NCBI RefSeq assembly: GCF_000203815.1
Contig: NW_004457729.1
Span: forward strand, 310,674-374,673
Direction of reading: 5' to 3'
Source: Cavenderia fasciculata
Lineage: Eukaryota; Evosea; Eumycetozoa; Acytosteliales; Cavenderiaceae
Length of the DNA stretch: 64,000 bases
The notes below the pieces were generated by a model. It worked only from the letters and a program-made list of their open reading frames with translations, made no database searches and was not told where the DNA came from. The position numbers were made by a program, and so were the translations under genes. Positions 1 through 64,000 of this stretch are shown here, piece after piece. Position 1 is the first letter of the stretch. Each line of letters starts with the position of its first letter.

Positions 1-444
1 ATTGTCATTGTCATTGTCTTTGTCCTCAACAACAAGTTTGAATAAATCAGTGAGAGAGAATCTTTCAATTGGTAGATAATAATCATCACGGTCTCGAATT
101 ATTTCATTTCCTAACATGTAAATTGATTGTTTGTTGATCTAGTTAAATTAAAGATGAAGTATTAGTCATCATCATCATGATCACACTAGATACAATGAGG
201 ATTGATTACATACAGTTGGTAAATGACAGTGCAAGACTAGATAATACAACCATAATATAGTCTTGTGACGATCATCATCTAAATAACCATCATATGTTTG
301 TTGAGCTCTACTCTTTTCTTCTACTTCTATTGTCTTGTTATTATTGTTCTTATTGTTATTGTTCTTATACTCTGTTTCAATACGTTCTTTAGATAGTTGA
401 ACAATCACTTGAATGAATGATTCAGGTGGTTCATTCTCATCCAT
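1..444 (-). CDS. L1: importin-5-like protein, 5' part only (cut by window edge)
   Basis: Exons 214-444 and <1-138 on the minus strand. Exon 1 starts MDENEPPESFIQVIVQLSKE, followed by an Asn-rich linker and the helix TILWLYYLVLHCHLPT, which matches the SWLLYLIVKGTYPT landmark of the other array members. The intron has a GTATGT donor and an AG acceptor before INKQSIYMLGNEI, the equivalent of IKDKAIQLLDRLL at the start of exon 2. This is the most divergent exon 1 in the array: the SWLL motif has become LWLYY. The rest of the gene lies left of the window, so I cannot say whether it is intact. By family it would be a cytoplasmic-nuclear shuttling import receptor. Confidence 0.7.
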
Positions 445-550
445 CTCTCATTCTCTCTATGTACCTCTCTCTCTCTTTTGAGCAAAAGAAAACAAAATAA
501 AATGATATAAAAAATATACTATAAAAAAAGATATATTTTATTTATTTGTT

Positions 551-2335
551 TTACGAAGTACTGGCTCTTTTTAATTTTAGATCCATTTTCTTTTTAGATT
601 TGTTCCATTTCCTTTTTCTTATGATATACATAGTTGATGCGATGGCAATGGCAGCAGCTACAATACATCCAACTACTATGCCTGCTATTTGACCAATTGT
701 CAATCCACTGGTAGGTGTCTTGCAAGTTGAATCGCTCATATCTCCTCCTCCACCATCGACATTAATCAAGTGAACGAAATTTGGATCAAGTTGAACATAT
801 GTATTGTAATAAGGTACATCCAACCCAATATAATTTGTTGTGTATGATGATGATGGTGAGGAGGATGAAGATGAAGATGTACTATTGTCAATGTAATCTG
901 TTAAAATTTGATTGTTGATAGTTGCTATTCTATCATCTAGAATTCCTCTTCTAATAAATTGACCCCAAAGACTTTTGTCATCGATATTTAACTTTATCCA
1001 ATCTAAATTGTTTTGTTTGTCTCCACCATATCCATACTCTCTAGATGAACATTCAGAATCATAGGTTGCCTCAACCGAAGTCTTTAACACCACTTGTAGA
1101 GTATTCGTAACAGTGTCAAATGGATACGCTGAAATACCAATAGAAATCTTTGTACTTGTTGCAGGTATATTTATGGTTTGATTGGCAAATTCTACTTGAC
1201 TGTCAACTGCAAACCATTCAATCGTTACTTTAACTAATGTTTTTGTTTGTTGTAGAATGGTTTGATATTTTAATTCAATTGAAGAGTTGGTATTATTAAT
1301 ATTATTTGGAGTTGTAACATTTAATGTCCAAATCTTTGGTATGTACTCTTGGAATACTGTTCCGTCCATTGTTAACTCTCTAATTGCTACAACTGCAATG
1401 ACTGATCGAATGACTGTGGTTGCATTATCTTTGACTATAATATCAATGATTGGTGATGTTTGGTTGAATGTTGGTTGATCGACATTGATGACGGTCGATT
1501 CACAAAAGAATCCTGACCATCCCGAATTACACAGGCAACCGTCAAATGTACACTGTCCATTGCCAGTGCAGTTGACCGACGACGACGATGGGGACGGAGA
1601 ACATGCAGTTGGTGTGGGCACAAATACGGATAAAAGTGGTGGTGGGAGCTGGATTGGCATGACAGTGAAGGGGTGCTCCACGTTATCGGTCGCAGTTCGT
1701 CTCAAAGTGACGCGAACTGGACGATCAACAACCGCCAATCTAGGATTATACTCCATAAACACCATGATGTGATGTGCCATGGTAATCGTGTGTAGTTGAC
1801 TGGTACCATTACCATACTCGATCACTCCAACGAGTTGTTGTGCATTATCACCAAACCCTTTTCCACGAATAGTGATAATCTCGATATCAGTCTGTACAGG
1901 CACGTTTGATGGATAACTATAGAACCCTTCTACACCTGTAATCGATGGAATATCCAATGAATAACCAACTTGAATCATTGAAGTGAATCCAGAAGTCTCT
2001 AACCTCAAAGTAGAGTATCCAATCAGATTATCCAACTTGTCTCTCAACCCATAGACCGACAAGTATATATCCCCATCATTGACACCAAATCCAAGTGGCA
2101 GTGTACAATTGTAATCAAAGAATGATGATGATGTTTTTACCGTTGGTTCAACTACCAATGATTGTCCAAATCTATCTAATAAATAAATAGTTGGGTATCC
2201 CTTCAATCCAATGCCATCATCCACAGCCGTCAAATTAAATTGAATCGTTCTATCATTTGATCCATTATTATTTAAAGATTTGGATATTATTATTGTTCTT
2301 TTTTCTTTGTTTTTGATTATGAACGCAAAAATTTT
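551..2335 (-). CDS. EGF/ComC-type membrane protein, apparently 5'-truncated
   Basis: One open frame ends at 551 and is open up to a stop at 2336-2338. No ATG lies between that stop and the conserved part (the nearest start-like codon is TTG at 2231-2233), and no signal peptide is visible. In order the protein has a beta-rich region, an IPT/TIG-like segment (IRGKGFGDNAQQLVGVIEYG), one EGF-like module (CTGNGQCTFDGCLCNSGWSG), a long ComC-type beta domain ending near VPYYNTYVQLDPNF, a membrane span (IGQIAGIVVGCIVAAAIAIA) and a short Lys/Arg-rich tail. Dictyostelid relatives are type I surface proteins with a signal peptide and more extracellular repeats, so the N-terminal half seems to be missing. 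Only about 110 bp separates it from the end of L2, leaving little room for an upstream exon. It may be a decayed duplicate of the gene at 6800-10453 or its relative. An unseen upstream exon is the alternative. Confidence 0.65.
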   Translation of the reverse strand, partial: KIFAFIIKNKEKRTIIISKSLNNNGSNDRTIQFNLTAVDDGIGLKGYPTIYLLDRFGQSLVVEPTVKTSSSFFDYNCTLPLGFGVNDGDIYLSVYGLRDKLDNLIGYSTLRLETSGFTSMIQVGYSLDIPSITGVEGFYSYPSNVPVQTDIEIITIRGKGFGDNAQQLVGVIEYGNGTSQLHTITMAHHIMVFMEYNPRLAVVDRPVRVTLRRTATDNVEHPFTVMPIQLPPPLLSVFVPTPTACSPSPSSSSVNCTGNGQCTFDGCLCNSGWSGFFCESTVINVDQPTFNQTSPIIDIIVKDNATTVIRSVIAVVAIRELTMDGTVFQEYIPKIWTLNVTTPNNINNTNSSIELKYQTILQQTKTLVKVTIEWFAVDSQVEFANQTINIPATSTKISIGISAYPFDTVTNTLQVVLKTSVEATYDSECSSREYGYGGDKQNNLDWIKLNIDDKSLWGQFIRRGILDDRIATINNQILTDYIDNSTSSSSSSSPSSSYTTNYIGLDVPYYNTYVQLDPNFVHLINVDGGGGDMSDSTCKTPTSGLTIGQIAGIVVGCIVAAAIAIASTMYIIRKRKWNKSKKKMDLKLKRASTS

Positions 2336-2446
2336 TCACCTCTAATGGATCTTTTCCTCCACTCTATTTTTCATCGTAAATGGTACTTGTCATTGACAAA
2401 AAAAAATTCAAATATCTTTTCCAATTATTATTAATCTGTCCTTTAT

Positions 2447-6799: not shown

Positions 6800-9700
6800 A
6801 TGATGAAACTATCAACACATTTTTCTTTATACTATTTAGTAGTAGTACTAGTACTGTTGTTAAGTCAACAACAAACAACATTTGTTAATAGTCAAACATT
6901 ACAATATGTTGTAGTATCAACCTATAAAACAGCTGGTTGTTTGGGTGCACCAGTGGTTGTGTTTTCCAATCCCCCAGGTATTTGTTATATTATAGATACT
7001 GGTTCTTACAAATACTCGTATGATCAAGCTGGTGGTCAAGCAAGTGTAACTCATTTCACTGATACTGGATGTACTGCCAATCCGACCCAAACATACGCCG
7101 ATCAGCTAGGTAACTGTGTTTCATACACCATCAACGGTAATACACTTTACAAGCAATTCGCATTGGCCACTCAACCACTACTCCAATTCCAAGGTTACAT
7201 ATCCTATGAAAAACATTATAATTTTAAGTATGCATATTTATATATTATCAATATTAATATTATATATTATAAATTATATTATATTTACATTTATTTCTAT
7301 TTATTATTTATTTATTTATTTATAATTTATTTAGTGATTGTACTGATAAGAATTTTGCAGCAAGAACTTTAATTAGTCCAAATCAAGCAACATGTTTATA
7401 CGCAGAAAGTTTTAATAGAATGATTAATAAGTTGACTATGCCAACTGGCGAATTCATGTCGTTGGACTATGGAAGGTTATCAGTTTGCGGCACACCAACT
7501 GGTACACTTGGATTTAACGCTGGTACCTGTTTGGGTGTACCTGGGGCTATCACATCCTACGGTATAGCATTTCCATGTGTTGTACCAACCCTGACAATGG
7601 ATCTAACATTGCCTGCCGTCCTTTCCACCAATAGAATTACTATCCCTGGTATTTCTACAAGCTGGAAAGCCTATTTGAACTACACCATGACCTCGTATAC
7701 CATCACCTATCAAATCGGTGGTGCCGGTACCGTATTTCCTGCCCATTCCAATTGTACTTCTACCACTGGTTGTACTTTTATTCTTCCATCACCAGCTCAA
7801 AGTATTACTATCAACGGATCACCAAATCTATATGTTCCAACTGGTCTAACTGCACCTTCATTCTCAAAGTCTTATCAATTACCTCCACGTAATATTAATA
7901 TATTTATATTGTAATTTTTATATTTATACATTTATTAATATATTTATTATTATATTTATATTTATTTAGCACCAACTGTTACATCTTTAAGTGTTACATC
8001 AAGAAAATCAACAAGTATTACATTTAATTATAATGTTGGTGATATTGGTATTGATGGAGCAGCTGCTGATACTACCTATATTGTAAAGTTGAATGGAACG
8101 ATTGATGTTACAGACCCAACTTGTATAGTCGGACCAACATGTACTATTTCCAATCTGTCTCCAGGTTCAACCCAAACTATTAGTGTACAAGCCAGTACCA
8201 ATGGTTATACAACACAAGCCTATTCCTCGAGTGTTACACTGTACCAAGAAATCACCGATATTGTAATAGAGTCTGCAACGATTAAAACAAAGAGCGTCTC
8301 TATTAATTATCACCCCATTTCAACTGATACAGCATTCCCAGTTGCCTTGTCCATCCTTGTCAATGGTCAACCAAAAGCCAGTTGTGATTCTAGTAGTTAT
8401 ACAACTAATGGGTGTTTGGTAGATCAACTAACTCCCAACACAACTAATATTATTACTATTACTGCATCTGCCAATGGTTATACATTCTCTAAAGATTTTA
8501 CCTATCTAACTTTCCCAAGTATGTAAATTAAATGATTATCAAAGTATAATAATATTTATTTATTTATTAATTAATTTTATTTATTTTTATATTTATAGGT
8601 TTAAATAATTATTCATTTAATATTACAAGAGTTGGAACTACCAGAATTGATGTTTCATTTGAATATCAAGGTGGAGTAGGTCCAGTTGTACAAGAAATAT
8701 CTATTCCTGGAGAAGGTCTTTGTATACCATTAGCAGTTGCTGGAACCTGTTATTTTAATGTACAACCAGATACTACATACACTGTTTCTGGTAAATTTGT
8801 AAATGACGGTACCTCTTTTTCGCTAACGCCACAAACAGTAACTACCTATCCACTGGTTAGCGGCTTGGAAGTAACTTTTGAACAAGTCTCTCTCGAATCA
8901 CTCAAGATTAGTTGGAGTTCGATAGGTGGTATTCCTCTGCTTACAACTTATAGTATCGATGTTGCTGGTACCAACTTTAGTAATCCCCCCTCGAACCAAA
9001 CACTCCTCTACCAATACCCAAACGGATATCCATACGGACAGACGCTCATAATTACCGTCAATGCTTTAAATGATGGTCTCATGATAACCAAAGAGGTTCC
9101 ATTTGTTGCTTTCCAATACCCATCGATTTCATATCAAATGTTTAAATTTATCAATACCCTCAATTTGACATGGAATCCTATGACTGGAGGTAATCCAAAC
9201 TCTCCAACCACCTACACATCATGGTTGCAGTACCAGAGCTCTGGTCCAAAAATCGAAAAATGCTCAGGCCAATCAATCTTTTATTGTCAATTCAATCATT
9301 TACTTGCTGGTTTGGAGTATAACCATTATTTAACTGTTAATAATTTCTTATTTTCTATTGATAGAAGAGGTGATGATTATACTTCTCAAGGTAAGTTAAA
9401 AAAACAAACAAACAAAAACAAAGATGGATTATTTATTAATTAATTTAATTTATTTTAGAAACTAATATTAGTTGTACAAATAATTGTAATAATCAAGGAG
9501 AATGTATATTGGGAAGTTGTGATTGTAATCAAGGGTGGGATGGTCCACAATGTGATATTGAATTATCAAATAATACATCTACCCCTCTTGTCTATTCTCT
9601 GACACCAAGTACTACAAGCAATACACCACCATCGGTGACAGTCTTTGTAAACAATACTGTTAAATACTCTATTGCATTGTTGAAAGTGTCTGAAGTCGAT

Positions 9701-10453
9701 ACCACTGATAATATCATTGTCAAGACACTTGACTTTTCTACTGGTAGTGCTGGCGGATGGCAATTGAATGGGCTAACAGCCAGCTATACCAATGCCAATG
9801 GAGTATCGATCCTTATCACCTTTGCTCAAACCAGTGCTGGTGAATCTAGTGTAGTCAGTTTCACAGGTAAGCCATACAATGTTACTGGTGGTTCGACACT
9901 ACTCAATATTACAGTTTCTGGTTGGACCTTTGACCTTGCTTCCAACTATTTGGATATTGAACTGTCAGTCTCTCACCCATCATCGATTTGTTCCGATTCT
10001 TCATGGTCTGTCTCTACCAATTCAACGTTTGTCAGTGAAAATAATCTTGCCTCTAGTTTGTTGATTGGTAACGACCCTAGCAACAATGAAACTACAGTAT
10101 TGCTCCAAGGAAAACTTGTAAACTCTGGCGTGGTTGACACTATCCCATCGGTTATCACCTACACCTCCTCTGGATCAAACAACACACCTACCACTCTTCT
10201 CACTATCCGTACTCCTTCATTTACACAATCGGTCACTGTTCAACCTGCATTCCACATCATCACCAAAAATATTACTATCAAACAATGTCCAAACCCCTCC
10301 ACTACCACTTCCACCACTTCTACCACTACCACCACCACCTCTACCACTACTACAACTGGTGATGATGGTAGTCTTGTATCTTTGGCAGTCCATCCCATCA
10401 TCCCATTAAACATTGCTGTTTTCTTTACAGTTATTTGTATTATTTTATTTTAA
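6800..10453 (+). CDS. Secreted FN3-like/EGF/ComC-type protein, probably GPI-anchored
   Basis: Five exons (6800-7227, 7335-7888, 7970-8518, 8599-9390, 9459-10453) give 1105 aa, all joined in frame at GT/AG introns of 68-107 bp. The start is the first ATG before a signal peptide (LYYLVVVLVLLLS); a second ATG follows directly. After a Cys-containing N-terminal region come several FN3-like beta repeats (for example PTVTSLSVTSRKSTSITFNY and LEVTFEQVSLESLKISW). An EGF-like module follows (CTNNCNNQGECILGSCDCNQ), then a ComC-type beta domain. A Thr/Ser-rich stalk (about 10303-10350) is followed by a hydrophobic C-terminus (NIAVFFTVICIILF) with no basic tail, typical of a GPI signal. The architecture is that of dictyostelid surface proteins used in adhesion or cell-cell signalling; a precise role cannot be read from sequence. 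It is convergent with L3, 63 bp away. Confidence 0.85.
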
Positions 10454-10516: not shown

Positions 10517-13500
10517 TTATAATTTTCTTTCTTGTATTAATAACCATGTCCTAGTTAATAATTCTTTTTCTTGTTTACAAGTTTCCAAATAATGATTGAT
10601 TATTTGATGTATCTTTTCAACATGTTGGTATTCTTGACCTAGACATTCATTTGTGTATAGATGTACAATAGCACAAAGGTTACCAACTATAGATATAGTC
10701 TCTTCGGCTTTCTCAGAGACTGGCAGACAATTTAACCATTTTGGAATGATTTCATGGATATTGTTGATTTGTGGAACATATCTGATGATTTTACCAATAC
10801 TAGATATGGCATTTCCAGTTGCAATTATATTTTCATTTGAAGAGTATGCATCTGGTGCCGAGACTATTCTATCTATAGCATGTAACGACTCCATTGCCCA
10901 AGGTGAGAATCTATCCTTTGCAACTTGTGCAGCTGCACCAAGTGCGTAGGAAGCATTTTGTTTAACAAGTGGAAAAGTGATTTTCAAACACTCGATAATA
11001 GTTGGTATGATATGTGGAAATGTGTTGATGGCAACTTCACCACCAAAGTCACAATAATGAGTCATGAAATATAGAATTCCAGCCTTTGTGATATTGGCCA
11101 CGCCAATGTTGTCACCTAGTCTCTTACAAGACTTGATAAATAGAGGGTAAGATGTGATTAGGGGTACTGCAATAACACTATTGTGCTTTACAATCTCACC
11201 CAACATCTCATACTCTCTGCAAACACCTTCATCGATTAAATTTAGTATATCTTCTGGATCTTGATCATCTCCAATTACAGCTTGATTGCCATTGTGTACC
11301 TGTTGTGCTATATCGCCAAGTTTTTGATCCACTTTGCACAGTATATTTAGAACTGACTGGATCTGATCGGTAGTCATTGCATCTTTTCCAATCTCTTCAA
11401 AGATATTACCTCCCGTGTTGATACGATGCACCAATATTTCAGTATCCGTCTCTGATGGACATGTCATAATGGCTGAATCGAATATCTTGATAAACATCTG
11501 GGTCAGCTTGTCCTCATTTTGGTGAATCTTTGACAACTTGATACAAAAAGGCAGACATTCTAGTGAGTAGAATTGAATATCTGTACTGACTGGACAGTTA
11601 ACCAAATTGCACAACGGATCTACCAATCTAAGTACAAATGGTGCCATCATTTCGGAAATGGATTCATCATCGTTTGATGCTTCCATGATTCTAGCCAAAA
11701 ACTTGAGTGTTGATGATACTTTTGTAATATCACGTTGTTGTGATTGAAAAATACCTTGTAATTGATTTGGTAATTGTATCTCTAGTATATTCACAACCAC
11801 TCTAATGATCATTGGTAAATACACTGCAAATGAAATGTCAACAGTTTCGATAAATAAGTCAAATGCAATGAAAAGATCGACTATCATATCAAACCACTTT
11901 TCATTGTTTTTAACAAACACCATCAATATGTATAAGAATTTAGAAAATGTCTTCTTATCTATCACCACACCACATATTGTAAATGCCTTGATTGCAAGAA
12001 CAACTAATCCTGTTTTTTTTCCTCGACTATAAAATACTCTTGATTCTTTTGTTTCATGATATTTTATCAATACTGCAAGTATAATTGGTATTATTCTTTT
12101 ACAATACTAAAAAAATAAAAAGGAGGAGGATGAATATATCTTTGAAAATATAATAATAATAATAACGATTTACATACAGGTTCTAATCTTTTGGTCATAA
12201 CAGTATTTATAACTGATATCAAAGATTGCAATGCATTTTCAATGATATGTATTTTTCTAGATTGAAGTACTCTTTCTAATAAACTAAATATTGCATCCAA
12301 AACACGATCACCAACAATTGTGTCATCTATTTCACCAATCATGTGTTCTTTTAATGAATTCATTATGGTTCCTATCAATTCACAACAATTATTTTGAATA
12401 CTGTCATTTAGATCACGAATGGACCTGACGATGACTTCAAATATTTCATTCCTTGATAAAACCATCAAATCACCATATTCCATTGATAAATTAATTAAGC
12501 ATTCAAATGCTGCCCATCTAACTCGAACATTTTCATCAACTGTACATTTTAATAAAAATCTACAAGGAGGAGGTAAATAATGAATAAATATAATGTTATT
12601 TCAAATATTTTCTGATTATACAAACTTTAAAATGGTTGAAAATTGTTGTGCAATACTAATTTTGAGGTATCTACAAGATTTTGATAAAAATTCCAATGCT
12701 GTATATCTTTCTTTCCACGATTGTTGAGATTGTAAAAAAAGGTAGAAATATTTGAAAATTGGTATTGTTGCACTTTGATCAAATGCACTAACAAATTGAT
12801 TAAAAATCATATGTTCTTGTTCGACATAGTAACTTCGTGGATTTTCACTTTCAATCTTGGTTGTCCATTCATTCAATGATATGTCCTTAATGTCTGATAA
12901 CAACCAGTAAAACAAATGATAGATGATTCTTTCAATCTTACTATCGGTATATATCTTTGGTTCCAATGATATCTCGGCCGAATCCCCTAGCATGTTCACC
13001 AAAAAGTTAAATATTCTTCTTTTGTTGTCTGATTTGAGACAAATACCCTCTTCACTGTTTCTATCCAACACCTTGATCATCGTGTCAATGATTCGTGGAG
13101 TGAGTTGAATCCATTCTGGATCATCTTTGTCATAGATACCGACAAGTCCATCAAGAACTCTATCGATTGATTTACCTTCTAAATTGTCATCCATCTGTAT
13201 GAGCATTGATAATAGTGATCTACAGTGCACCTCTGTCAATTTATCACCAAGAGAGCCAAGTATGTCTACCATATCTTGATTATCTTTTTCAAAGTTATAC
13301 TTTGATAATACTTGCATCAATGTTTTTGCATTGTCTTTTAAATTAAATGGTCCTTCTTCTTCTTCTTTTCTATTTATAATGTTTTCCAATGTTGGTTTCA
13401 ATTCATTCCAACCACCTAATAATAAATAATGTTTTGTTAAAAAGGATTGTAGATTATTATAGCGATACATTTAAATGTAGATCTTACATCTTGGTATTAA

Positions 13501-13977
13501 AACAGTTGCAAATGATTCAATGATACCAAATAAATGTTTTCTAAAGGTATCTGTAAGAGTTGTATTGAGTAACTCGATCGTTTGAAACTTGACTGCATCT
13601 ATTGTATCATCTGACAGTTGATCGATATAATGGTTCCTTTTTTGTTGAACTCTTTTTTTGAACAATAATCTATCAAGTAGCTGAACTGCTTTCTCTTTAA
13701 TCTGTTTATAATTATACAACATGTATTATTAGTTTGTCAAACTCCTTCATTCATGATCACAACATAATATTATACTTACAGTTTTATAGGTACCCTTTAC
13801 GATTAAATATAGTAACCATGATACTACTTTATCTGGTTTAGATACAGTATACTCTTTGAATAGTTGTTTTGATGTTGATTTATAGTTGTTATTGTCTTTC
13901 TTCTCTATTTGTTGATCTTCTTCTTCTTTTGCTAAAACAACAATAATCTCTATAAATTCTTTATCTGGTTGCTGCAT
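10517..13977 (-). CDS. L3: importin-5-like import receptor, intact, shortened C-terminus
   Basis: Exons in transcript order: 13780-13977, 13488-13701, 12626-13415, 12178-12559 and 10517-12106, giving 1057 aa with all frames open. Landmarks: MQQPDKEFIEIIVVLAKEEE, SWLLYLIVKGTYKT, IKEKAVQLLDRLL, GGWNELKPTLENI, LNEWTTKIES, DENVRVRWAAFECL, SYALGAAAQVAKDRFSPW, ISSIGKIIRYVPQI and PKWLNCLP. The protein ends RTWLLIQERKL, about 20 residues earlier than most array members, which continue with a NWD...LSKL helix. The acidic loop of exon 3 is also reduced. The E3/E4 intron has a GTTTGT donor rather than the usual GTATGT, and the E1/E2 and E2/E3 introns use GTAAGT and GTAAGA. Expected role: HEAT-repeat nuclear import receptor. 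Whether the missing last helix affects activity is unknown. Confidence 0.83.
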
Positions 13978-14099
13978 ATTATAGTATGCTTTGATTTAAA
14001 TAGATAATACAATAATATAAAATATAAATACAACAAAAATATAAATATAAGAAAAAGTAGAAAAAGAAAAAATTTAAAAAATTTTTATTCATTTTATTT

Positions 14100-14358: not shown

Positions 14359-14370
14359 TTTAGTCTTTTG

Positions 14371-50887: not shown

Positions 50888-50986
50888 TCATTTTAATTAG
50901 AGGCACCTATTTACTATGAATTTTTTCAAATTTTTTGTTTTTTTATCTTCCCTTAAAAATAAATAAATAATAATAATAGTTAAAGA

Positions 50987-53900
50987 ATGGAACAAATAGA
51001 TGTCATCAAAGATGAATTTAAAGAGATTATTATCATTTTATCAAGAGATAAACAGATCGATAGAGATGATACTACAAGAGACATTAACAAATACAACGAT
51101 AATAGTCAAGCAAAACAAAGATTCAAAGAGCATGCTTTATCAGATCCTAACGATACAGTATCATCGTTACTCTTTTTATTATACTTACCTATTCAGGGTT
51201 TAGATCAAACTGTATGTGATTAACAATCAAAGATAGAGATCATGATGACTAATAATTATCATAATACAAAAGATTAAAGAGAAATCAGTACAGTAACTTG
51301 ATAGATTATTGATCAAACAAGGAAAAGAGTATATAAAATCATTAGAACATATAATATTGGAATCAGTCAAGTATGAAACAATAGAGTTACTCAAAACAAC
51401 TCTTACAGATACCTTTAGACAACATTTATTTGGTATCATTGAATCATTTGCTACTTGCTTTGTACCTATAGGTATGTTGAATGATTGTTGTTTAAAACTA
51501 TATCGATCATTCAATCAATCATTGTACTAATATATTCTTTTGATTAGGTGAATGGGATGATTTAGAATCATCAATATTAAAAGTAGAAAAAGAAGGATCA
51601 CCAATCTTAAAAGATAATACTATGGCATTGATCAATGTATTGTCAAAATATGACTTTAAAAAAGAGAAACAAGAGATGTTGATAGAGATGATCAAGTCTG
51701 AAGATGACTCTTTTCTGAAATTGACAGAAAAACAGTATCGATCATTCATGCCAGTTCTACTATCATTAATGCTAGAACAAATCGATGTGGTTGATAACTT
51801 TTTTCTAAAGATGTCTATCCCCAAGCTGAAAAGAATCTTTGTCGAGAACACTAATACCACAGCATGGATACAAGAATTCACTCCACAGATTATTGAAACG
51901 TTGATCCTGGTGTTGGATAGCCACCATGAAACAGGATACATCGACACAAAAAGTATAATAATGGATTATTTGTTGTATGTGATCAGCATATGTACCGATA
52001 TTCACATTGAGAGGATCACCTTTCATTTGTACGAATGGTTGACCCATGTCAGAGATTTGTCACTGGAAGAGTGGACAGACAGCTTTCCAGCAGAGAATAA
52101 TATTTTAAATAATGGAATCTCCAACAACATTTATGATAACATTTGCTTTGAAGAGAGGGAAAATGACATTATCCCAACAAACTATCCCATCGGAAATCTA
52201 GATTATGAACGAGATGACATTGAAATAGATTCAAGTTTTTCTCAGTTCTCAACTGGTGCCGCAGTTTATCGACATGATGTTATAATACCAATTTTCAAAC
52301 ATTTCAACATCTTTTCAAATTCTCAACAATCGTGGAAACAAAGATATGCAGCATTGGTTGGTTTGTTTAGATTTCGTCATTCCCTTTATGGCAAATTGTC
52401 ACTTCAATTTCCACAAGTTTTAGAGTATGTAGTTGAAAGCTGATAATAACTATATTTACAATTTTAATTAATTATAAAATTGTCATTTAATATCTAGATC
52501 AGTATTAAAATTGGTTGACGATGAAGATATTAGAGTTAGATGGGCATCATTACACTTGTTAATTCAATTAATTAAGTTTGTACAATTGGAAGACAAGTCA
52601 AGAAGAGAACAACTATACTCTGTGATTGAAACATTAATCTCAAAATCCATTGGTGATGATCAAAATGAACGTATTCAAAGTAGCTGTTGTGTATTCCTCA
52701 CGTCTTTGAAATATTATAATATTTCTGATCACCTCGTAAAAGGTTTATCAAGTTTGTTTGTAATACTTCTTCAATCTCCAAAATTACATGTAGTCGAAAA
52801 TACATTATTGTTGGTTGTAAATAATATTGTCCAAGTTGGACCTGTAAGTAAATATATCACAAGAAAATTTTAAAAAAGGACAATTATTAATATTTGTTAT
52901 AGGAATCTAGAAATATCATTCCAATTCTATTATCTTTATTGGATAAACATCATGCAACAAAAGAATCAAGATTAATACGTTGTCGTGCAATAAGGGCATT
53001 TTCATTATGTGGTTCGTTGATGGACAAGAAGATATTTTCAAAAGAGTTAATCAAGTTTATGGTTTTTGTTAAAAAGAATGAAGAATCGTTTGATTTGATT
53101 CTACATGTTTTGATAGCATCGAATTTATTTATTAAAGATATTGGCAAATCATTTTCAGTGTATTTACCAATGATCATCAAGATTATTTTCAAGATACTAG
53201 AGAAACCATTTCTCAGTCAAGAAGAAGAAGAAGAAATGAATACATCACCCAATATAAAGATAATACTCCCAACTCTAAGGAATTTGAATAGAATAATGCA
53301 TTCCGGAGTTTATGAACATTTGGCACCATTTGCACATCTATTGGTAGACCCACTACTCAACTTGGTCAAGAGTCCATTCGAACTCTATATTCGAATAAAT
53401 TCCCTGGACAGTTTACCAACTTGTATGAAACTGTCCAAGATGCAATTTGGTGATCGTGATGGTGACAAGACTCTAGAGATGTTTACAAAGATACTCGATA
53501 CGTTACTCTTATCAAATCCACTCGAACCTGATCACTATTTCTTTTTGCAATATCGTATCGACACGGGATCAAAAGTTATCAAATCAATGGGCAATGATGC
53601 AATGACCCCCGATCATATTCAGTCAATACTATGCATATTATCCAAGATGGAGGAAAAGTTGTACAACATTAAAGAACAGGTACAAAATGAAAATCTAGAT
53701 GAAATTGGCGATGAGGATGAAGAAGATGTTCTAAATTCAACCTATGGTGGAGTTGCTAGTATTTATCAGATGATAGGCCAAATCATCAAACAAAATAATC
53801 TCGTGGCGGTATCTCTTATAACCTCTGAACTCTTGGACAGAGCATGCAAGAAACTAGGAGAATTTGAAGAATTAGATCATACTGACAAGGGAGGTATACT

Positions 53901-54501
53901 CTATTTTATGGCTTGGTATTTGGAATTTGGTGGTGACTTGGCCATCAACTCTTTCAAATTTATCATACCAACCATTATCAAGTGTATAACCCTCGACGAT
54001 GACATTGTGCGAATCAACCTTTCAGATGCACTTGGATCTGCAGCAAAAATTGGAAAGGATAGATTCTCACCATGGATCAATGAAGCGTTACTGGCACTTG
54101 ACACTTTGATCTCTGAAACCGAGACAGACTACCAACATTTCAGGGATTTTGCCATATCGAATATTGGTAAAATCATTAGATATGTCCCTCAGGTCAATGT
54201 CAATGTTATGATTCCTAAATGGTTGAGCCTTCTTCCCATAGAAGACAAGAAAGAAAATATTAATGTCATTCATAATCTATGTGCCATTGTCCATCTATAC
54301 CCCAAACAGTGTTTATATGTTGAAGAACACAAAGATGTACCCCAAATTTTTTATATCTTTGATTATTACAGACAGACGTATCAACCACCACAACAAGAGA
54401 AAGAATTACTCTCACAAACTTGGTCATTTGTCAAAGAATCATTCACACCTATCGATACAGAGAAGACATCAGTTATGTTATCATACTATTTGGATCAATA
54501 A
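50987..54501 (+). pseudogene. L18: importin-5-like, five exons, a single nonsense codon
   Basis: Exons 50987-51211, 51273-51471, 51548-52424, 52498-52843 and 52903-54501 join in frame to 1082 codons. The only lesion seen is TAA at 51294-51296 in exon 2, where siblings have TTA in the motif SVQLLDRLL. Exons 3 to 5 are fully open: GEWDDLESSIL, VLSKYDFKKEKQEML, LEEWTDSFPAE, DEDIRVRWASLHLL, ALGSAAKIGKDRFSPW, NIGKIIRYVPQVNVNVMIPK. Exon 1 is divergent (MEQIDVIKDEFKEIIIILSR; TVSSLLFLLYLPIQGLDQT). No alternative acceptor that skips the stop and keeps the frame is apparent. Translation from an internal ATG in exon 3 (51622) would give a receptor without its N-terminal HEAT units. Confidence 0.75.
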
Positions 54502-54559: not shown

Positions 54560-55290
54560 TTGTTTATTTATTCGTGTACTACCAATTTTGATATTATCTC
54601 TTTTTTATCTTCTGGAATAGTGTCCCAATTATCTTAAATGATTCCTTTATCAGTAACCAGGTTTGGTATAGTAATAATCTTTCTTTTTGCTGTGGTTGTT
54701 GACAAGTTTTCATATATTTAATTCACATATTGGTTGACAAGCTCAAGTTAGACTGACCATAGCTGCATATCTTTCCTTCCACAGTTTTGATTTTACAAGG
54801 ATACGAGATTGAGCCAAAATGGGTACTGCAAAACGTTTACCAAACACAAGTATGAGTTGATTTAATAATTTATAAGCTGGTGTACCTGTCGCTTCACTAT
54901 CGTATCATAGTGGTGTGACCGATGTTCTTTTGTTGGTGGTGGTGTAATATAATCTTTTTCATCTTCATAGTCGAGTGGGAAAAAGTTGTTGATTGAAGTT
55001 AAAGATGTCGAATCACACGCCATTGCGAAAATAAAACCAAACATATGATAGTTTTGTTTCTAGTGGTTGTGGTCTTCTTTTCAGCGTGTCTGTCCAATAC
55101 TCTAATCATAAGGTCTATGATCCGTGGAGCGAATTGGTTCATCCAAGGTGGATTGTCGTTTAGTCTATAAATCTTTGTTTTGCTTTTACTATATCTTTGT
55201 CTTTGTTGTTGGTACCATCCTGATCTCTTGCTAAAATAAATATTGTATTTATGAATTCTTGATTTGATCCATATCTGCAAACACAACACA
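54560..55290 (-). pseudogene. L19: scrambled relic of an importin-5-like gene
   Basis: Three pieces remain, in transcript order. The first is an E1 start (SNQEFINTIFILARDQDG to KAKQRFID, about 55160-55280) without its usual ATG context. The second is an E3 part (PPWMNQFAPRIIDLMIRVLD, then FPLDYEDEKDYITPP and WKERYAAM, about 54730-55165) with stops and shifts. The third is an E5 C-terminus (MKTCQQPQQKE, QTWLLIKESF, about 54560-54720), frameshifted before the NWD motif. The C-terminal piece resembles the end of L9, and the E3 piece resembles L20 (KDYIPPT), so it may be chimaeric. E2, E4 and most of E5 are lost. Confidence 0.7.
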
Positions 55291-55467
55291 CAAATACCTA
55301 TATTACATTAAAGAATTAGAACAAATAACTGTATCCTTACAAATGGCTATGATGATGAGTGAAAGAAACATTTTTTTTCTTTTTTTTTTTTTTTGGGGTT
55401 TTTTTTCAAGAGATTCATTTGGATGAACCTATTAATTATTTGATTTGTATTTGTATTTTGATTTTAT

Positions 55468-58400
55468 TTAAAGTGGTGGATCTATCAATTTTGATAAAGT
55501 ATTTCTTGTAGTTTCTGATGTAATATTGTCCCAATTTGATTTGAATGATTCTTGAATAAATAACCAAGTTTGTGAGAGTAATTCTATTTCATCTTTTTGA
55601 CAAGTTGTTTTCCTGTATTTCAAGATGAAACCATGTAACTTGACAACATGTTGGTATTGTTCACCACCGAGGAATTGGTCTGGGTAGAGACGAATAATCG
55701 AACAAAAGGTTTCAATAATCGGTACTTTGTCGGCGGTGACAAGTGGTAGCTTGTTGAGCCATTTTGGAATGATGACATTGAGCATACTTGAGACTTGTGG
55801 TACATAACGAATGATTTCACCGATACTCCTGATTGCATACTCTTTGGATGTTTTGTTGTCGACAACTGTTGATATTGGTTCGGATAACATAGTGTCGATT
55901 GCTTGTAACACTGGTGTGAGATACGGTGAGAATCTATCTTTGGCAAGTTTAGCAGCCACCCCAAGTACAACTGCTGCTTTGATTGGTGCCAATGTACCTT
56001 CTAATGACAGACACTGAATAATAGTTGGAATGATCAGAGGGAATGCAGTGATGGCAACGTCACCACCATGAGTCGAGTATGACAACCTTGACCATATCAC
56101 CTTCATCATCCTCTGTTAGATAATCACAAATATCCTCCAATATATTCGTGGTACCTGTGATGAGTGGTATTGCAATGGTACTGTTATACTTGATCATCTC
56201 TGTCATCACACCATAGAGTGCAAACAAAGCTTGAGCAATATTCTTTAAAAATGGTTCTGGCATATTGTCACCAATAATATCTTGATTTCCAGCTCGCACT
56301 TGGTCTGCCATTACGAATAACAATGGTTTCATCCGATTATATGTGGCGACTGTCGACTCCACCTGGTCGAGTGTCATTGCATCTTTACCCATTGTTGAAA
56401 CGAGGTAACTTGCCATAGAAATACGTAGTGCACACATTTGAGGTTCCAATTCCTGATACCCCAACGCTGCATCAAGTATCTTGCCAAATACTTGTATTGT
56501 CTTGTCACTACGCTCTCCCCATTGTATTTTGTACAGTTCAAGACAAAATGGTAAACATATCATCCGAATATTACTGTTGAATGGGTATATTGCAAGTTTA
56601 CAAATGGGATCGACCAAGCAATGTACAAATGGTGCCAACGGGCGATATGAAGTAAGAACTTTCAACTTTTCATCTTTTGAGTAATCTTCATCCTCGTCAT
56701 CTTCTTCATCTTGGTAATCTTCTTCTTCATCATATTCTTGATCATATTCTTTTTCATTTGATTTCAAGATTGTGTTTAAACCTTTGAGTGTCAATAGTAC
56801 CTTTTTCATATCTTGTTTTGATTCATCTGGCATTTCATCTATTTCTGCTTGTTGAGTGGGTAATGGTGTCTCGAGTATATTTGCAATCATCCTAACAAAC
56901 ATTGGAAAATACATTGGAAATGATTGACTACCATCTTGAATAAATACATAGGATGCTCTGATGACATCTACAATCATATCAAATGACTTTTCATTCTTTT
57001 TGACAAACACCAAAAACTTGTTTAAAGATTTTGAGTATTTCTTTTCGTCAACAAATGATGAACACATGACAAATGCCTTGATTGCATGACTACGTAATAT
57101 TCTTGATTCTTTTGTTGCATTATGTTTTTCCAACAAAGATAATGAAATTGAAATAATATTTCCAAAATACTAAAATAATAAATAGAAATAAATAAATAAA
57201 ATAAATACAATTAAATATTAATAATTAATTATTTCTTTTTAAACTTACAGGATTAAATCTATTTTTAACAACACCAACAATTGATTGTAATGATAGTAAT
57301 GCATTTTCAGCAACATAGAATTTAGGGGATTCAACTAGTGCCAAGAGACCACGACACAGTCCATTTAACACATTATCACCAATCATTTCATTGGTCAATA
57401 TATCTGTCATGGTTTGAACCAATACACAACCACTAGATTGTATTCGTTCATTTGTACCTTGGCGAATCGATTTTCTAATGACATTAAATACTTGTTGTTT
57501 TACTTGAACCATTAAATCACCAAATTCAATTGATAATATAATTAAACATTGAATTGATGCCCATCTAACTCGTATATTTTCATCTTCAAATAATTTTAAT
57601 GCTAAACTAAATTAATAAAATAAATAAAAAAAAAAAAAAAAAAGATTAATATTATTATTATTATCTTTTTGTTTGTTTTACATACTTTAAAATAATTGGA
57701 AATCTTTGAAATAAAACTTCAGATGAGAATTTACAAGCAGTAGCCAAACCAACCATAGATGCATATCTTTCTTTCCATTGGGTAGAGTTTGACAAGGTAG
57801 TGTTGCATTGATTGAAAATGGGAATTACAGAAACTGGACCAAATACTTGGATGAATTGTGCAAGTTTGGAATGAGCTGTAATACCTCTCCCATCACTAAC
57901 ATCGTCATTGTAAGTGGTAGGATCATCATCATTATTTGTTGGTGGAATATAATCTTTTTCTTCGTCATAGTTGAATGAATAAAAGTTCTTGTCAATGTCG
58001 ATTTTGGAGTTGGTCTCTGTCCACTCTTCCATCGATACATCTTTGACAGTTGATATTAACCAAGCATACAAATTGACTATTATTCTTTCAACTTGAGTAT
58101 TATTAAAAAGAGTTACATTATTCTTTGCCAAGACTGTCAAGTAATCATATACCATTCTTTTAGTACTATTGACAAGATACTCCTTTCTTCGATGATTGTC
58201 CAACAACACTATCAACGTTTCGATGATTTGTGGTGCAAGTTTTCTCATCCAAGATGGATTATTGCTTCGTACAAAAATCTTCATCAATCGGTAAATAACC
58301 TCTTCCAAGACTGTCTCTGAGACGCGGTCATCCATCGATGGTGGTTTTGAGATGATTGTTAGCAACTTGGAGACAAGTGTTACATAATCATTGTCAATGA

Positions 58401-58782
58401 CACCTCTTCTATTAAAAAAGTTACGAAGCATCAATGTGAAATCCAACTTTTCTCTCATTGCTTCATCTTGTAACTCTTTTCCTCTTTTAGCTAATAATTT
58501 ATCAAGTAATGATCCTGCTTTTTCTTTAATCTTTTAAATGATCATCTGTTAGTCATCTTCATCCATCATCATAATCATCATCATAATTAATTAATTAATT
58601 AATTATAATTACACACATACATTTGGAAAAGTACCTTTGACCATTAAATAGAGTAACCATTCTGCTACTTTATCACTATCAAAATCATTCTTTTTGATGG
58701 TATCGTCAATATCATCTTTCTTGTTGTTTGTATTTGCTAAAGTAACAATGATCGCTATGAATTGATCTGTTGGTTGCTCCAT
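55468..58782 (-). pseudogene. L20: importin-5-like, third architecture, one frame lesion
   Basis: Exons in transcript order: 58621-58782, 57686-58530, 57249-57606 and 55468-57169. E1 is short (MEQPTDQFIAIIVTLANTNN to EWLLYLMVKGTFPN). The next exon begins like E2 (IKEKAGSLLDKLLAKRGKEL) but passes in frame into mid-E3 (RRGVIDNDYVTLVSKLL). It therefore lacks most of E2 and the first part of E3, more than in the four-exon class. E4: DENIRVRWASIQCL. E5 carries an acidic insert (about 56680-56760) and one short deletion near 56080, where DMVKVVIL should continue to YSTHGGDVAI; this changes frame. The remaining C-terminus is normal (VVLGVAAKLAKDRFSPY, SIGEIIRYVPQVS, PKWLNKLP). Likely a young pseudogene. 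Confidence 0.73.
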
Positions 58783-59259
58783 CATAACATAAATATAACT
58801 ATAACTAGTGTTACTATACGATATTAGCTAATAATAATACATTAGATACTACTACTATTATTACTTTGAGATTACATGTATAAAATTAATTTGATTACTA
58901 CTGTGATTATTCATACCACAAGAGTACCACACTCTTGTGTGAATGGTGGTTGGTAGTGGGTGAATATTCTCCTTTACAATATGTGTACAGCTACATACAA
59001 TATGTGTAGACCTATTATTAAATGTGATGTTCAGATCTCATTGTTGTTTATTATATTTAATGAATTAATTGTACAAAAGAATAGATAGATGATCGTCACA
59101 GAAAAAAAAAAAACAAATCAAACAAAAAAGAGATTAATAATAAAATAATATAATATATATTATATATATACATATCTTATATCTATCTATCTCTACTTGT
59201 TATGACTATGTACAGAGAGACACAGAGAGAGATCCTTATATTATAGCTATAATATTTTA
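58783..59259. other. AT-rich intergenic region with a perfect hairpin and direct repeats
   Basis: No gene is visible in these 477 bp. It holds a perfect nine-base inverted repeat, CACAAGAGT at 58917-58925 and ACTCTTGTG at 58931-58939, with a five-base loop. A GT-rich patch follows (58941-58962), then two exact copies of TACAATATGTGTA at 58975-58987 and 58996-59008. A12 and (TA)n runs come later. It separates the start of L20 from the truncated 3' end of L21, so the motifs could belong to the L20 promoter. Function is not known. Confidence 0.4.
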
Positions 59260-62200
59260 TTAGCGTCGATCATTGACCATTTCATTTTCTTGTTGTTCTA
59301 GACACTTGATAATATGTGTTATGATATGCGGATAAGAGTTGATGGCTAAATCACCACCATACTCACAGTAATTGGCCAATAATTCAAGAATTCCAGTCTT
59401 GATATCATCAATCACTTCATTATCACGCAACTTGTTACAACACTTTTCCAATAGATTCGAGGATGTGATGAGGGGTGTAGAGATGGTGCTGTTGTATTTT
59501 AACAAATGACTAATGATCTGATAGTTGATGTGTACCTTTTGGAGATAGTATCTAGTATTTCATCAATATCTTCATCATCATCGTTGTCGTCATCGTTATC
59601 TAATTGGATTCCATCTCGAATATGATCTAATCTATCAAAGAGCCTATTATCCATCTCGTCAAATATATCCAAAGCCGATTGTACTTGATCAATCGTCATT
59701 GCATCTTTACCCATTGCTTTGATGACCATACATCCATCTTCGATATGATCGGTGTAAAGGTGTGATTGCTCCCATTCCACGAGGAAACAATCTAGAACCA
59801 TACCAAACATCTCAAGTGTCATGTAGCTTCGTTCGCCATACAGAAAAGTAAACAGATTTGGATATGATCTCGTGAATTTGGTTGAGCATCCAACAAGTTG
59901 CACAATGGACCAACTAATCTATGTGCAAATGGTGCCAAAGGTTCATAAAGTGATTCATCTTCTACTTTACCCATTATTTCGACCAAACCGAGTGCATCCA
60001 ATTCTGTGAAATCGGGTAAAGGTGTTGTCTCTAATTCATTGATCATCATCCGCATAATCATAGGTAAATACACTGAAAATGACTTGTCAACAGCATCAAT
60101 GAATAAATGAGATGCTCTGAATACATTATAGATCGGAGACCCAAGAGCCTTTTCATTCTTTTTAACAAACATCATAAACTTGTGTAAATATCTTGAAAAT
60201 GTCTTCTTTTCCATCACTTTACCACAGATTGCAATTGCCTTGATTGTACTCTGACACAGTTTGAATGATTCTTTTTCTGTATGATGTTTTTCTAATAATG
60301 TTAATAAAATTGGTATAAATCTTTGTGAATACTAAATAATTCCAGTGGAAATTTGAAATTAGTATCTGTATGAATGCAAATATTTTAATTAAATTGAACT
60401 TACAGGTCTAAATCTATCTTTAACAGTATCTACAACAATCATAAAGGATTGAATTGTAATCATAGTGACTGATAATATTGGTGATTCAAGTTGAATTTGA
60501 AATGAACTAAATAATCGATCCAAAGCATTATCATCTATCATGTCTTGTTTTAATAAAAGCATCATTCTATGAATTACCCAGCAACAACTATTTTGAATAA
60601 ATATATATGGATCATCACGAATTAATTGGAAAATAACTTGAAATATATCATATCTTGATTCAACAATCAAATCTGACAAATCAATCGATAATTGAATTAA
60701 ACATTTAAATGATGCCACTCTAACCAAGATATTTTCATCATTTACTAGTAAATATTACTTTAATGTTTTTACATACTTTAAAATTATTGGAAATTGTTCT
60801 CTATGACCAATTTTTTCTTTAAAGAATTTACTAAATTTAGTTATGCTCATCAATGCTGCATACCTCTGTTTCCACGATTGTTGAGAGTTTGAAAAGATGA
60901 GAAAATGCTTGAAAATGGGGACAGCAACTTTTTGACCAAATGTATGTACAAATCGATGAAAACATGAAGCCGCTGCTACCAGCTGATAGTTTTTGTTATA
61001 GTCCCGATAGTAATCTGTTATTATTTCATCATCTTCTTCACTGTCACTGTCACTATTACTATCACCACCATCACTGTTACTATCATCATTATTATCATCG
61101 TCATTGCTGTTGTCAATAATGTTGCCAATGTCAATCATGGATGGTTTGTCTGTACACTCCTCCAATGATAGATCCTCGATATCAGATAACCACTCATAAA
61201 AATGAGGGAGGATTCTTTCAATGTGACTATCTGTAAAGTAATCGGGAGTTTTCGATGCCATTTCCAACAAGTGTCTAAACACAACCGTTTTGTTGTTTTT
61301 AGTTTCGAAACCTTTTTCACGATGTCTATCCAATACATCTATCAATGTGTCAATGGTGTGTACAGTAAAATCTTTCATCCATATTGGATTATAGTAGAAA
61401 ATGATACGAGTCAAGTTGCATACACACTTTTCGAGTAAGTCTCCATCGACAGACCCATCCATTTCCGCCATCATTGATAGCAGCATTGGAATGTATGATC
61501 TATATTGCTTCTCTGTCAATTCACGAGCAAAATCAAAAGATTCAACCATATCTACCAACATATTTTGTTTATCCTTTTGAATACTAGTGAATGAAAATGT
61601 ATTGAGTAGTGCCATTGTATTATCTCGTAATTTTGATTCTTCTTCTTCTTCCTTTTCATTTACAAATGTATTCAATGTTGATTCTAATTCATCCCAAAGA
61701 CCTAATTAATTAAATCAACGTTAATTTAGATCGATAATATGATTGTATCAATTTACACATACCTCTTAAATAAACTGCAAGTGATTCAATGATACTAAAT
61801 AAATGAAATCTCTTTGTCTCTGTAAGTGTTGTATTTAGAAACTTGATTGTTTCAATCTTTACAACATCTACCATCTCTTCAGACAATGATTTAATAAAAT
61901 ATTGTCCTTTAAACAAGTCAAATAATCGATAAAGTAACTGTAATGCTTTATCTTTAATCTGTTGATAAAAGAGTAATAAATGTGTAATAATTGTATTAGT
62001 TATATGTAATATCTATCTACTTATCGTTAAAATATGCATACAGTAGGATAGGTACCCTTAACCATCAAAAAGAGTAACCATGATACTACTTGTTCTGGTT
62101 TTGATAAAGTGTACTCTTTGTATTGTTTTTTTGTTTGTGAATATAAACGATCAAATATTAAATCATCTTCTCTACTATTATTATTATTATTATTATCTCT

Positions 62201-62275
62201 CTTTATTTGTTTATGTTGATCTTGTTTTGCTAAAATGACTATTATCTCTATAAATCCTTCACCTGGTTGCTCCAT
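59260..62275 (-). pseudogene. L21: importin-5-like, 3'-truncated and frameshifted
   Basis: Exons in transcript order: E1 62042-62275 (MEQPGEGFIEIIVILAKQDQ), E2 61763-61958 (IKDKALQLLYRLFD), E3 60777-61701 (GLWDELESTL, a long Asp/Ser-rich loop, QRYAALMSITKF), E4 about 60404-60740 and E5 59260-60331. The gap between E3 and E4 is reduced to about 35 bases with no in-frame acceptor. The core motif of E4 reads LVRVASFKCL, without the usual Trp. E5 changes frame at least twice (about 59850 and 59530). It ends at IIKCLEQQENEMVNDRR, so the whole KDRFSPW and RYVPQ part is gone. A clear pseudogene. The E1 donor is GTATGC. Confidence 0.82.
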
Positions 62276-62414
62276 AATAATAGATAAACAAACTAAAATA
62301 CTACTATACTATATGTTGATGATGATTATAATACTAAAGATAAATACTAAATAGTATTATAGCAATGAAAGATATAAAATGAAATGATACAAATCAAAGG
62401 TAAAAAAAAATAAT

Positions 62415-64000
62415 TTAATTTATTATTTTATTTTTTAAATAGTATGAAAGTGACATTTTAATTGTTGATGGAATAGTATCCCAATTTGATTGTATTGATT
62501 CTTTGATAAATGATATGGTTTGAAAGAGTAATTGTTGTTGGTTTTGATCGAGTAGTTTTTGGTCTCGACTTAACTGTAAGATAATCAAAAATAACTTTTC
62601 CACGTGTTGGTAGATCTTACCAAAACACTCGTTGGGATAGAGATGGATAATGGTACAAAGGTTAGAGATGAAAATATCTTTTTTGTACCATAAAGGGAGA
62701 TGACTAAACCATTTTTGAATGATGTAATCGACATTGGACAGTGTTGGTACATATCTGATGATTTTACCAATACTAGATATGGCATGTTGTTTGACGATTT
62801 CTTTGTAAACTATTTCAGAGTATGGTTCAGATGCTATACTATCCAAAGCCTGTAATGCATCGATTACCCAAGGTGAGAATCTGTCCTTGCCAATTTGTGC
62901 AGCCACTCCAAGTGCAATTGAAGAGAATTGTCTTTCCATGATATTATCAGAGGTCATACACTTGACAATGGTTGGTATCACCTTTGGAAAAGAGTTGATA
63001 GCATTTTCATTACCGCACTTGAAGTATTGCATCATAAAATAGTGCGTATTCTGCTTGACCGAGAATTCATCTTCAGTGCCATCCAATATCTGGCAAGCTC
63101 TATCCAAATGATCAGATGTGATGAGTGGAGCTGTGATGGCTCTATTGTGTTTGAGCATATGTCCCATTGTCATATATATACCTTCTATTCCTTGAGAGAT
63201 TGAACGTTGTGAATCTCCCGTGGAGAATAGTCCATCTCCAATGATATCTTCATCTCTGTCGTCAGAAAATACTTTTTCAATCACATTTAACCTGTCCAAG
63301 GTTGAATGGATTTGATCCAATGTCATTGAATCCTTACCCATTACTTTAATGACTTTGGCTCCCATAATTATAAATTCTCCTAAAATATTAAAGTGGAGGG
63401 GTTGAATTGAACAATAGGTGAGTGCCAATTCGAGTATCTTTCCAAACATTTCTAGTGTCTTTTCACTTTTTGCTCCAAAATGAAGCAAGTACAATTTTAA
63501 CACTGCTGGTAAATTGGAAAGAGAATTCTTTTTGATTTGGTTGTTGAATGGGTTCATAGACAATTGAAAATGCAATCTACCAATCTCTGAGAAAATCGTG
63601 CCAAAGGTTCATAAGCAGTTTTCTGTTTTCCATTAAACCATTCCAAAATATCTTTCAAGTTATTGAGTGTAAGTATTATACTCTTGACATCTTCTTCTTC
63701 CTCTTCTAGTATTGGTGTCTCTAGTATATTGATAATCATTCTAATAATCATTGGTAAATAGATTGCAAATGAGTTACCAACCAATTGCATAAATGAACCA
63801 GATTCTTTGAAAATATATTCTATCACAACCAAATCCAAAGACTTTTCATTCTTTTTGACAAACTGCATCAACATGTATAAATATCTTGTAAATGTCTTTT
63901 TGTCTATTACTTTGCCGCATAGTCCAAATGCCTTGATTACACGACACCGTAATAATCTAGATTCTTTTGTTCCATGATATTTTTCCAATAATGATAATAG
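62415..64000 (-). pseudogene. L22: importin-5-like exon 5, cut by right edge, one deletion
   Basis: Only exon 5 is inside the window; it continues past 64000. It reads LLSLLEKYHGTKESRLLRCR, MQFVKKNEKSLDLVV and FAIYLPMIIRMIINILETP. About four bases are missing near 63572, where RLVD should continue PLHFQLSMNPF. After that the frame is open to the stop at 62415 (IALGVAAQIGKDRFSPW, SSIGKIIRYVPTLSN, QKWFSHLP, QSNWDTIPS). The rest of the gene cannot be judged. Either a young pseudogene or a sequence error. Confidence 0.68.

Follow-up and report, generated by a model that had tools for sequence, protein, structure and literature searches.

The subfamilies of karyopherin-beta, the superfamily of nuclear transport receptors that includes importin-5 (IPO5 in human, Kap121 in yeast), are regarded as ancient and stable, and a genome usually has very few copies of the importin-5 gene. 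Birth-and-death multigene arrays, in which intact genes stand in tandem among pseudogenes and fragments, are typified by other families, such as the olfactory receptors. Here we describe a stretch of 64,000 nucleotides from the dictyostelid Cavenderia fasciculata (contig NW_004457729.1, positions 310,674 to 374,673; the whole stretch is hereafter called the window) that carries 23 importin-5-like loci in a row. It resembles the olfactory-type arrays in its mix of intact genes, pseudogenes and fragments, but it is built on a core transport receptor and not on a receptor for outside signals.

Among karyopherins, the survey of O'Reilly and colleagues, which took in 36 proteomes (Dictyostelium discoideum included), reports in the passages cited here few signs of large within-taxon expansions; the IMB3 entry of its expansion list consists of only two versions in Phytophthora, and the Amoebozoa were left out of its reference phylogeny on account of the greater divergence of several sequences (PMC3083441). 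The most dramatic expansion in that survey, the 15 XPO1 genes of Trichomonas vaginalis, is likewise a lineage-specific expansion of a karyopherin-beta, but it concerns another subfamily, and the same passages give neither a tandem array nor a decay series for it (PMC3083441). On the strength of those 15 genes, the assertion in an earlier note on this DNA that such evolution is not seen in transport receptors was too strong. In Drosophila, Apollo and Artemis are a tandem pair of importin-4 genes, of which Apollo loads a sperm chromatin protein (PMC10520872, PMC8645118). They share with the present locus the tandem duplication of an import receptor (in Drosophila with specialisation of one copy), and differ from it in that they are two copies, of importin-4 and not importin-5, with no pseudogene array mentioned in the passages cited; by analogy with Apollo, specialisation as a carrier is a possible fate for copies such as those described here. 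For dictyostelids, the main text of a study of family expansions, as far as that source is drawn on here, contains no importin, karyopherin or HEAT (PMC8535579), and an ordinary importin-beta-type protein (IBN_N, HEAT_EZ), which the cited part of the source does not equate with importin-5, is conserved in four species (PMC5282741). No published importin-5 array in amoebae was among the matches listed in our literature searches.

Relative to IPO5 and Kap121 themselves, which are its best matches by sequence and fold, the family has a similar length and a HEAT solenoid, with the likeness strongest over the C-terminal two thirds. On the other hand, it is unlike them in its 23 loci in a row, in an N-terminal third that is barely recognisable, and in the replacement of most residues of the groove that binds the nuclear localisation signal (NLS).

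Census, gene structure and turnover of the array

The loci were resolved by means of stop-to-stop open reading frames (ORFs) over the whole window, together with profile models of five exon blocks. The seed ORFs of these profiles were the window's own, so that their matches arise by construction; the same five models gave no match to the reversed window at an independent E-value (i-E) <= 0.05, and searches of the PDB (see below) served as the independent check of family identity. The census (numbered L0 to L22, skipping L5, with L13b added; Table 1) came to 23 loci, close to the figure of about 22 given in the earlier note, 19 of them on the minus strand (the plus-strand ones being L6, L8, L17 and L18). 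Their spans (introns included, and the overlaps in two pairs of spans counted once) cover 54,537 of the 64,000 bases; the claim that importin loci fill the 64 kb is qualified by the two non-importin genes interspersed among them. The window has a guanine-plus-cytosine content of 32% and contains poly-Asn runs, features which, like a neighbouring gene with ComC and DUF7034 domains, point to a dictyostelid.

Five loci are uninterrupted (L1, L2, L8, L11 and L13), seven approach full length but carry one or more lesions (L4, L9, L10, L14, L15, L18 and L20), five are relics (L7, L12, L17, L19 and L21), four are fragments (L3, L6, L13b and L16) and the remaining two are truncated by the ends of the window, a range that agrees with the one described earlier (intact copies to relics). 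The edge-cut loci are L0 on the left, a single exon 1, and the truncated gene L22 on the right; since they sit at the edges, the array runs on both ways, as had been noticed.

The copies follow a shared exon plan, in which exon 1 mostly begins with M-[E/Q]-[E/Q]-P and runs up to GTATGT or a similar donor, exon 2 starts with IK(D/E)K in most copies, exon 3 starts around a Trp and finishes in a HEAT helix, exon 4 contains RVRWAS, and exon 5 comprises about 540 codons. Within the intact set, exons 2 and 3 are merged into one in L8 and L13. The introns of the five intact copies (57-156 bases, GT..AG) lie at common positions, and splicing yields open frames of 1057 to 1121 residues. Clean ORFs are limited to these five loci, the exon 5 of L2 ending early. 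Frameshifts were found in L4, L10, L14, L15, L20 and L22, and the one in L9, where ten A stand in a row, might stem from faulty sequencing.

Three further observations concern individual copies and their flanks. Exon 3 of L10 encodes a run of 18 Glu, and acidic runs in other copies are shorter and variably placed. The in-frame fusion in L17 joins exon 3 with the final part of exon 5 (49814-50743, plus strand), and exon 2 of that locus is broken. A candidate shared promoter motif, AGTAGTAT, which precedes 8 of 16 start codons (the start of L0 being placed 2 bases off), was rejected, as the best k-mer in shuffled sequence also reached 8 (100 shuffles, mean 5.3).

Tandem copies, intact genes beside decayed ones and a lack of homogenisation (as judged by pairwise identity) are all features of birth-and-death evolution, and the coexistence of intact, broken and fragmentary copies upholds that part of the earlier description. 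Pairwise amino-acid identity between intact copies is 44-48%, except for L8 and L13 (67%). At the DNA level the longest alignment of one copy with another (among the best 25 of 355 matches) again pairs L8 with L13, at 75% identity, and short pieces reach 80-83%. In a tree of 14 exon 5s, L8 and L13 are joined with a support of 100 and two other nodes reach 84 and 92, the rest having supports of 25-66 on short inner branches, a shape that fits an old burst followed by turnover. Immediately upstream of L2 and L15 are L3 and L16, two exon-5 tails that each have this neighbour as their best match (about 80% DNA identity); judging from this arrangement, they are probably what remained of tandem duplicates after most of each had been deleted. 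Separately, a blastn match of 3.4 kb (65% identity) pairs 27101-30320 (5' end of L9 plus L10) with 36362-39653 (5' end of L12 plus L13), which hints at duplication of a two-gene block, in a region where AT-rich spacer may align by chance.

Kinship to importin-5 and the cargo groove

The C-terminal part of the protein ties the family to importin-5. Exon 5 of L11 gave seven PDB matches at E <= 0.01, all of them Importin-5 or Kap121 (IPO5 1e-19, Kap121 about 3e-15), and the full spliced L13 gave seven at E <= 0.001, again without exception IPO5 or Kap121. With a profile of 11 exon 5s, the E-values were 3e-30 for IPO5, about 5e-21 for Kap121 and 3e-5 for transportin. Exon 5 as modelled by AlphaFold (mean predicted local distance difference test, pLDDT, 88.2) retrieved RanBP5/IPO5 at Foldseek ranks 1-3 (top match E ~2e-12, template modelling (TM) score by query 0.72), Kap121 at ranks 4-11 and 13, and importin-4 at rank 12. 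Pfam returned generic HEAT-type matches, with TPR_IMB1 barely over the cut-off in L11; Importin_rep_6 appeared in three of the 11 exon 5s, its best E being 0.0003. The importin-5 kinship proposed in the earlier note is thus supported, and neither exon 5 nor the full protein was placed by profile outside the importin-5 group. Sequence and predicted fold together support human IPO5 and yeast Kap121 as the closest relatives, and the array family is a strongly diverged branch of importin-5/Kap121 (IMB3) kin. Searches for relatives of the exon 4 and exon 5 alignments in viral contigs, and of exon 5 in prokaryotic contigs, found none, a result that is uninformative on other amoebae.

Importins bind Ran through their N-terminal region, and it is there that the family is most altered, its first 300 residues being barely recognisable as importin. 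The exon 2-3 profile reached Kap121 at 2e-9, mostly through the last 90 of its 298 positions, followed by designed armadillo proteins (4e-6) and IPO5 (0.05); with a single copy as query, the best E was only 0.011. Neither IBN_N nor TPR_IPO5 matched the N-terminal region at E <= 1 in L11 and L13 (two of the five intact copies), which, for want of an IPO5 yardstick, may only reflect the reach of the models. The seven top Foldseek matches of the exon 2-3 model were all Kap121 (E 0.003-0.02), the best being Kap121 with RanGTP (E 0.0034). The solenoid is of full length, and exon 3 has at its end an acidic stretch that aligns to the one in Kap121.

For the cargo groove we used R349, Q350, D353, E396, N430, D438 and N477, taken from the titles of PDB entries of Kap121 mutants and presumably constituting the NLS site. 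Groove residues are not given in the cited passages of PMC5677370 and PMC8004120. E396, N430, D438 and N477 are identical between yeast and human. None of 14 loci keeps the full set: E396 is kept in one of 14 (with K, R or H in 8), D353 in one of 14, N430 in none of 14 (Q in 9) and N477 in none of 12. Targeted loss of the NLS groove was rejected as a specific claim on a column control, in which the 52 columns of the region shared by yeast and human are kept by the family at a mean of 29%. Conservation in exon 5 was much the same in helices (0.43) and loops (0.42), with single helices ranging from 0.23 to 0.60 and inner and outer faces pooled. The family also has invariants of its own: 13 of 14 loci carry W where yeast and human share a Tyr, and 13 of 13 carry Cys at the second Ala of the yeast and human AAAA. 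We read these as a sign that the array's ancestor had probably departed from ordinary importin-5 before it multiplied.

Selection and competing explanations

Comparing the five intact copies with one another (10 pairs) by the Nei-Gojobori method gave ratios of nonsynonymous to synonymous divergence (dN/dS) that all lay within 0.37-0.54; over the 28 pairs of eight copies obtained by adding L9, L18 and L20 they were 0.37-0.63. dS was 0.84-1.04 in 9 of the 10 intact pairs, near saturation, and 0.56 in L8/L13 (dN/dS 0.37, bootstrap 0.31-0.46). In 50-codon windows of L8/L13 none exceeded 1 (maximum 0.94, leaving aside one undefined window and a 7-codon tail at 3.1). Over its first 50 codons (20570-20800 and 40193-40420) this pair has a dS of 0.18, against 0.56 for the whole gene, which may mark a patch of gene conversion. 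Site models (custom code) gave an M0 omega of 0.41 for the five copies (1018 codons) and 0.45 for exon 5 (10 loci, 527 codons), and M1a assigned 41-49% of sites to omega 1 and the others to a class at 0.21-0.23. M2a improved on M1a by a 2 dlnL (twice the difference in log likelihood) of 6.76 for the five copies (P ~0.03) and 10.48 for exon 5 (P ~0.005), with two degrees of freedom, its fast class comprising about 2% of sites at omega 15-25 with a posterior >0.9 at no site. The exon-5 test left out L14, L20, L21, L22 and smaller pieces and took L9 and L15 by their first in-frame piece; the exon alignments were built from whole ORFs, so that their ends hold some intron-derived residues, and in one of them the L15 row ends out of frame past its frameshift. 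We read these values as mostly purifying selection, probably with broad stretches under relaxed constraint and no more than a hint of positive selection, and the L8/L13 windows and the weak gain in the site models led us to reject positive selection as the main force.

We favour, with a probability of about 0.5, the explanation that this is a lineage-specific, importin-5-derived birth-and-death array whose intact copies would act as specialised nuclear carriers or chaperones. Its foundations (the array, its kinship, the open frames, the constraint upon them, and two of four fragments lying beside their closest gene) are directly supported. According to this explanation, a duplicate of importin-5 would have been freed from its housekeeping load, a separate ordinary importin-5 elsewhere in the genome keeping the job, and the array would therefore have been free to change its N-terminal arch and cargo groove. 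The duplicate would have retained the solenoid while altering the Ran-binding arch at its N-terminus and its cargo face, copies would have been gained and lost through unequal crossing-over, and the intact ones may serve lineage- or stage-specific cargo and not the general importin-5 role.

Several observations weigh against this explanation. The exon-4 profile placed Kap121 first (7e-8), followed by designed armadillo proteins (4e-6) and only then IPO5 (1e-4), and the structure predicted for exons 2-3 is of poor quality (pLDDT 65) and has no structural match at E <= 0.001. At D438 the acidic character is mostly retained (exact in 4 of 14 loci, D or E in 11 of 14), and the loss of the four shared groove columns is not significantly greater than that of other shared columns (P 0.16; P 0.047 when only polar columns are taken), so that the groove changes may represent general divergence rather than new specificity. 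Furthermore, the placing of fragments beside their closest gene is not universal (the best match of L6 is L10, and L13b is about equally close to L1 and L13), and the share of sites at omega 1 under M1a also fits relaxed constraint.

That same share, together with the 18 of 23 loci that are broken, partial or cut, and the three broken copies whose dN/dS lies close to that of the intact ones, is what one would expect from neutral birth and death, in which tandem duplication is frequent, copies are redundant and under relaxed constraint, and none has a specialised job. We consider this unlikely, though it is the alternative that survives best: five ORFs of more than 1000 codons remain open in spite of near-saturated dS, and the second M1a class has an omega of 0.21-0.23.

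A more ambitious version of the carrier explanation is a diversified repertoire, in which each intact copy, with its own rewritten cargo groove, would admit or hold back different proteins, and which might serve stage-specific nuclear programmes or police transposon, viral or bacterial proteins entering the nucleus; we think it quite improbable. An equally improbable case is that the proteins have left nuclear transport and become HEAT-repeat scaffolds. The altered groove, the lack of an importin Pfam match over the N-terminal 300 residues of the two copies examined, and the dependence of the N-terminal likeness to Kap121 on the end of exon 3 would agree with such a departure, but the solenoid is still of full length, its acidic stretch is placed as in Kap121, and the C-terminal half remains most like IPO5.

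Very doubtful, in our estimation, is genetic conflict, i.e. an arms-race repertoire engaged in drive, allorecognition or the nuclear entry of transposons or viruses. The high turnover and the divergence of copies, the gain of M2a over M1a, the ComC-type surface-protein gene within the array, and the existence in Drosophila of fast-evolving nuclear-transport duplicates (PMC8645118) are in its favour; however, the fast sites are few and individually below a posterior of 0.9, an omega of 15-25 suggests effects of alignment or saturation, and the least saturated pair, L8/L13, has no 50-codon window above 1. The suggestion in the earlier note that the family evolves like immune or drive genes is not supported by these site posteriors or by the dN/dS of all intact pairs. 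Lastly, the window derives from an assembly, and an artefact (haplotypes, or a mis-assembled duplicate of one gene) is scarcely credible: the longest match from copy to copy, at only 75% identity, diverges far beyond what haplotypes or repeated contigs would show, order and strand vary, and the decay is specific to each copy.

Coordinates, neighbouring genes and significance

Both non-importin genes lie near the left end of the window (Table 1). The first, between L0 and L1, encodes a ComC-type surface protein, ComC being a dictyostelid protein, and has a C-terminal hydrophobic stretch in addition to its domain matches. The second, between L1 and L2, is likely a multi-exon gene, with a start that resembles a signal peptide and a Thr/Ser-rich tail followed by a hydrophobic end.

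Table 1. Importin-5-like loci and interspersed genes of the 64,000-nucleotide window (positions are those of the window).
Locus	Description	Position	Strand	Evidence
L0	Exon 1 of a further copy leaving the left edge	214-444	-	Profile 223-432, i-E 2e-11; 231-base frame, in frame and open from ATG to GTATGT donor
Neighbour 1	ComC-type surface protein gene	551-2335	-	594-aa frame; DUF7034 8.7e-23, ComC supersandwich 7.9e-8, EGF 1.4e-5
L1	Intact, 5 exons, 1100 aa	2447-6173	-	Splices without inner stop; introns all GT..AG
Neighbour 2	Likely multi-exon gene	~6800-10453	+	fn3 match 3.2e-6; EGF match
L2	Uninterrupted, 5 exons, 1057 aa, C-terminus ~24 codons short	10517-13977	-	Exon 5 profile stops at position 516 of 540
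L3	Exon-5 tail fragment	13979-14359	-	Closest to adjacent L2, DNA 80.5% over 154 bases
L4	Near full length, exon 4 frameshifts	14371-17985	-	Profiles, ORFs
L6	Exon-5 tail fragment	18087-18500	+	Profile 18111-18404, i-E 1e-37; best DNA match L10, not a neighbour
L7	Degenerate relic	18389-20371	-	Broken pieces of exons 1-5
L8	Intact, 4 exons, 1057 aa	20570-23930	+	Spliced ORF; 67% identity to L13
L9	Near full length, exon 5 frameshift at ten-A run	24014-27564	-	Profiles, splicing
L10	Near full length, exon 4 frameshift, 18-Glu run in exon 3	27730-31360	-	Tandem repeat 30591-30706 (-)
L11	Intact, 5 exons, 1121 aa	31539-35310	-	Spliced ORF; exon 5 structure modelled
L12	Relic: exons 1-2, scraps of exons 3 and 5	35447-36876	-	Profiles
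L13	Intact, 4 exons, 1057 aa	37024-40420	-	PDB matches at E <= 0.001 all IPO5/Kap121
L13b	Exon-1 fragment over two frames	41388-41667	-	Profile
L14	Near full length, exons 3 and 5 frameshifted	41793-45143	-	Profiles
L15	Near full length, frameshift near 3' end	45291-48676	-	Profiles
L16	Exon-5 tail fragment	48814-49131	-	Closest to adjacent L15, DNA 80.3% over 233 bases
L17	Relic, deletion fuses exon 3 in frame to exon-5 tail	49173-50884	+	Both profiles in one ORF; exon 2 in two frames
L18	Full length, one in-frame TAA in exon 2	50984-54501	+	Splicing
L19	Relic: small pieces of exons 1, 3 and 5	54571-55307	-	Profiles
L20	Near full length, exon 5 frameshift, deletion in exons 2-3	55468-58827	-	Profiles
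L21	Relic: exons 1-3 open, exons 4-5 broken	59263-62308	-	Profiles
L22	Exon 5 with frameshift, truncated by the right edge	62415-64000	-	Profiles

As regards the biology of the family, the dictyostelid host may allow gene editing (a 2026 paper, cited here in part, deals with CRISPR in diverse dictyostelids), and 23 loci derived from importin-5, with a changed groove, would offer a natural experiment on cargo change in a nuclear carrier.

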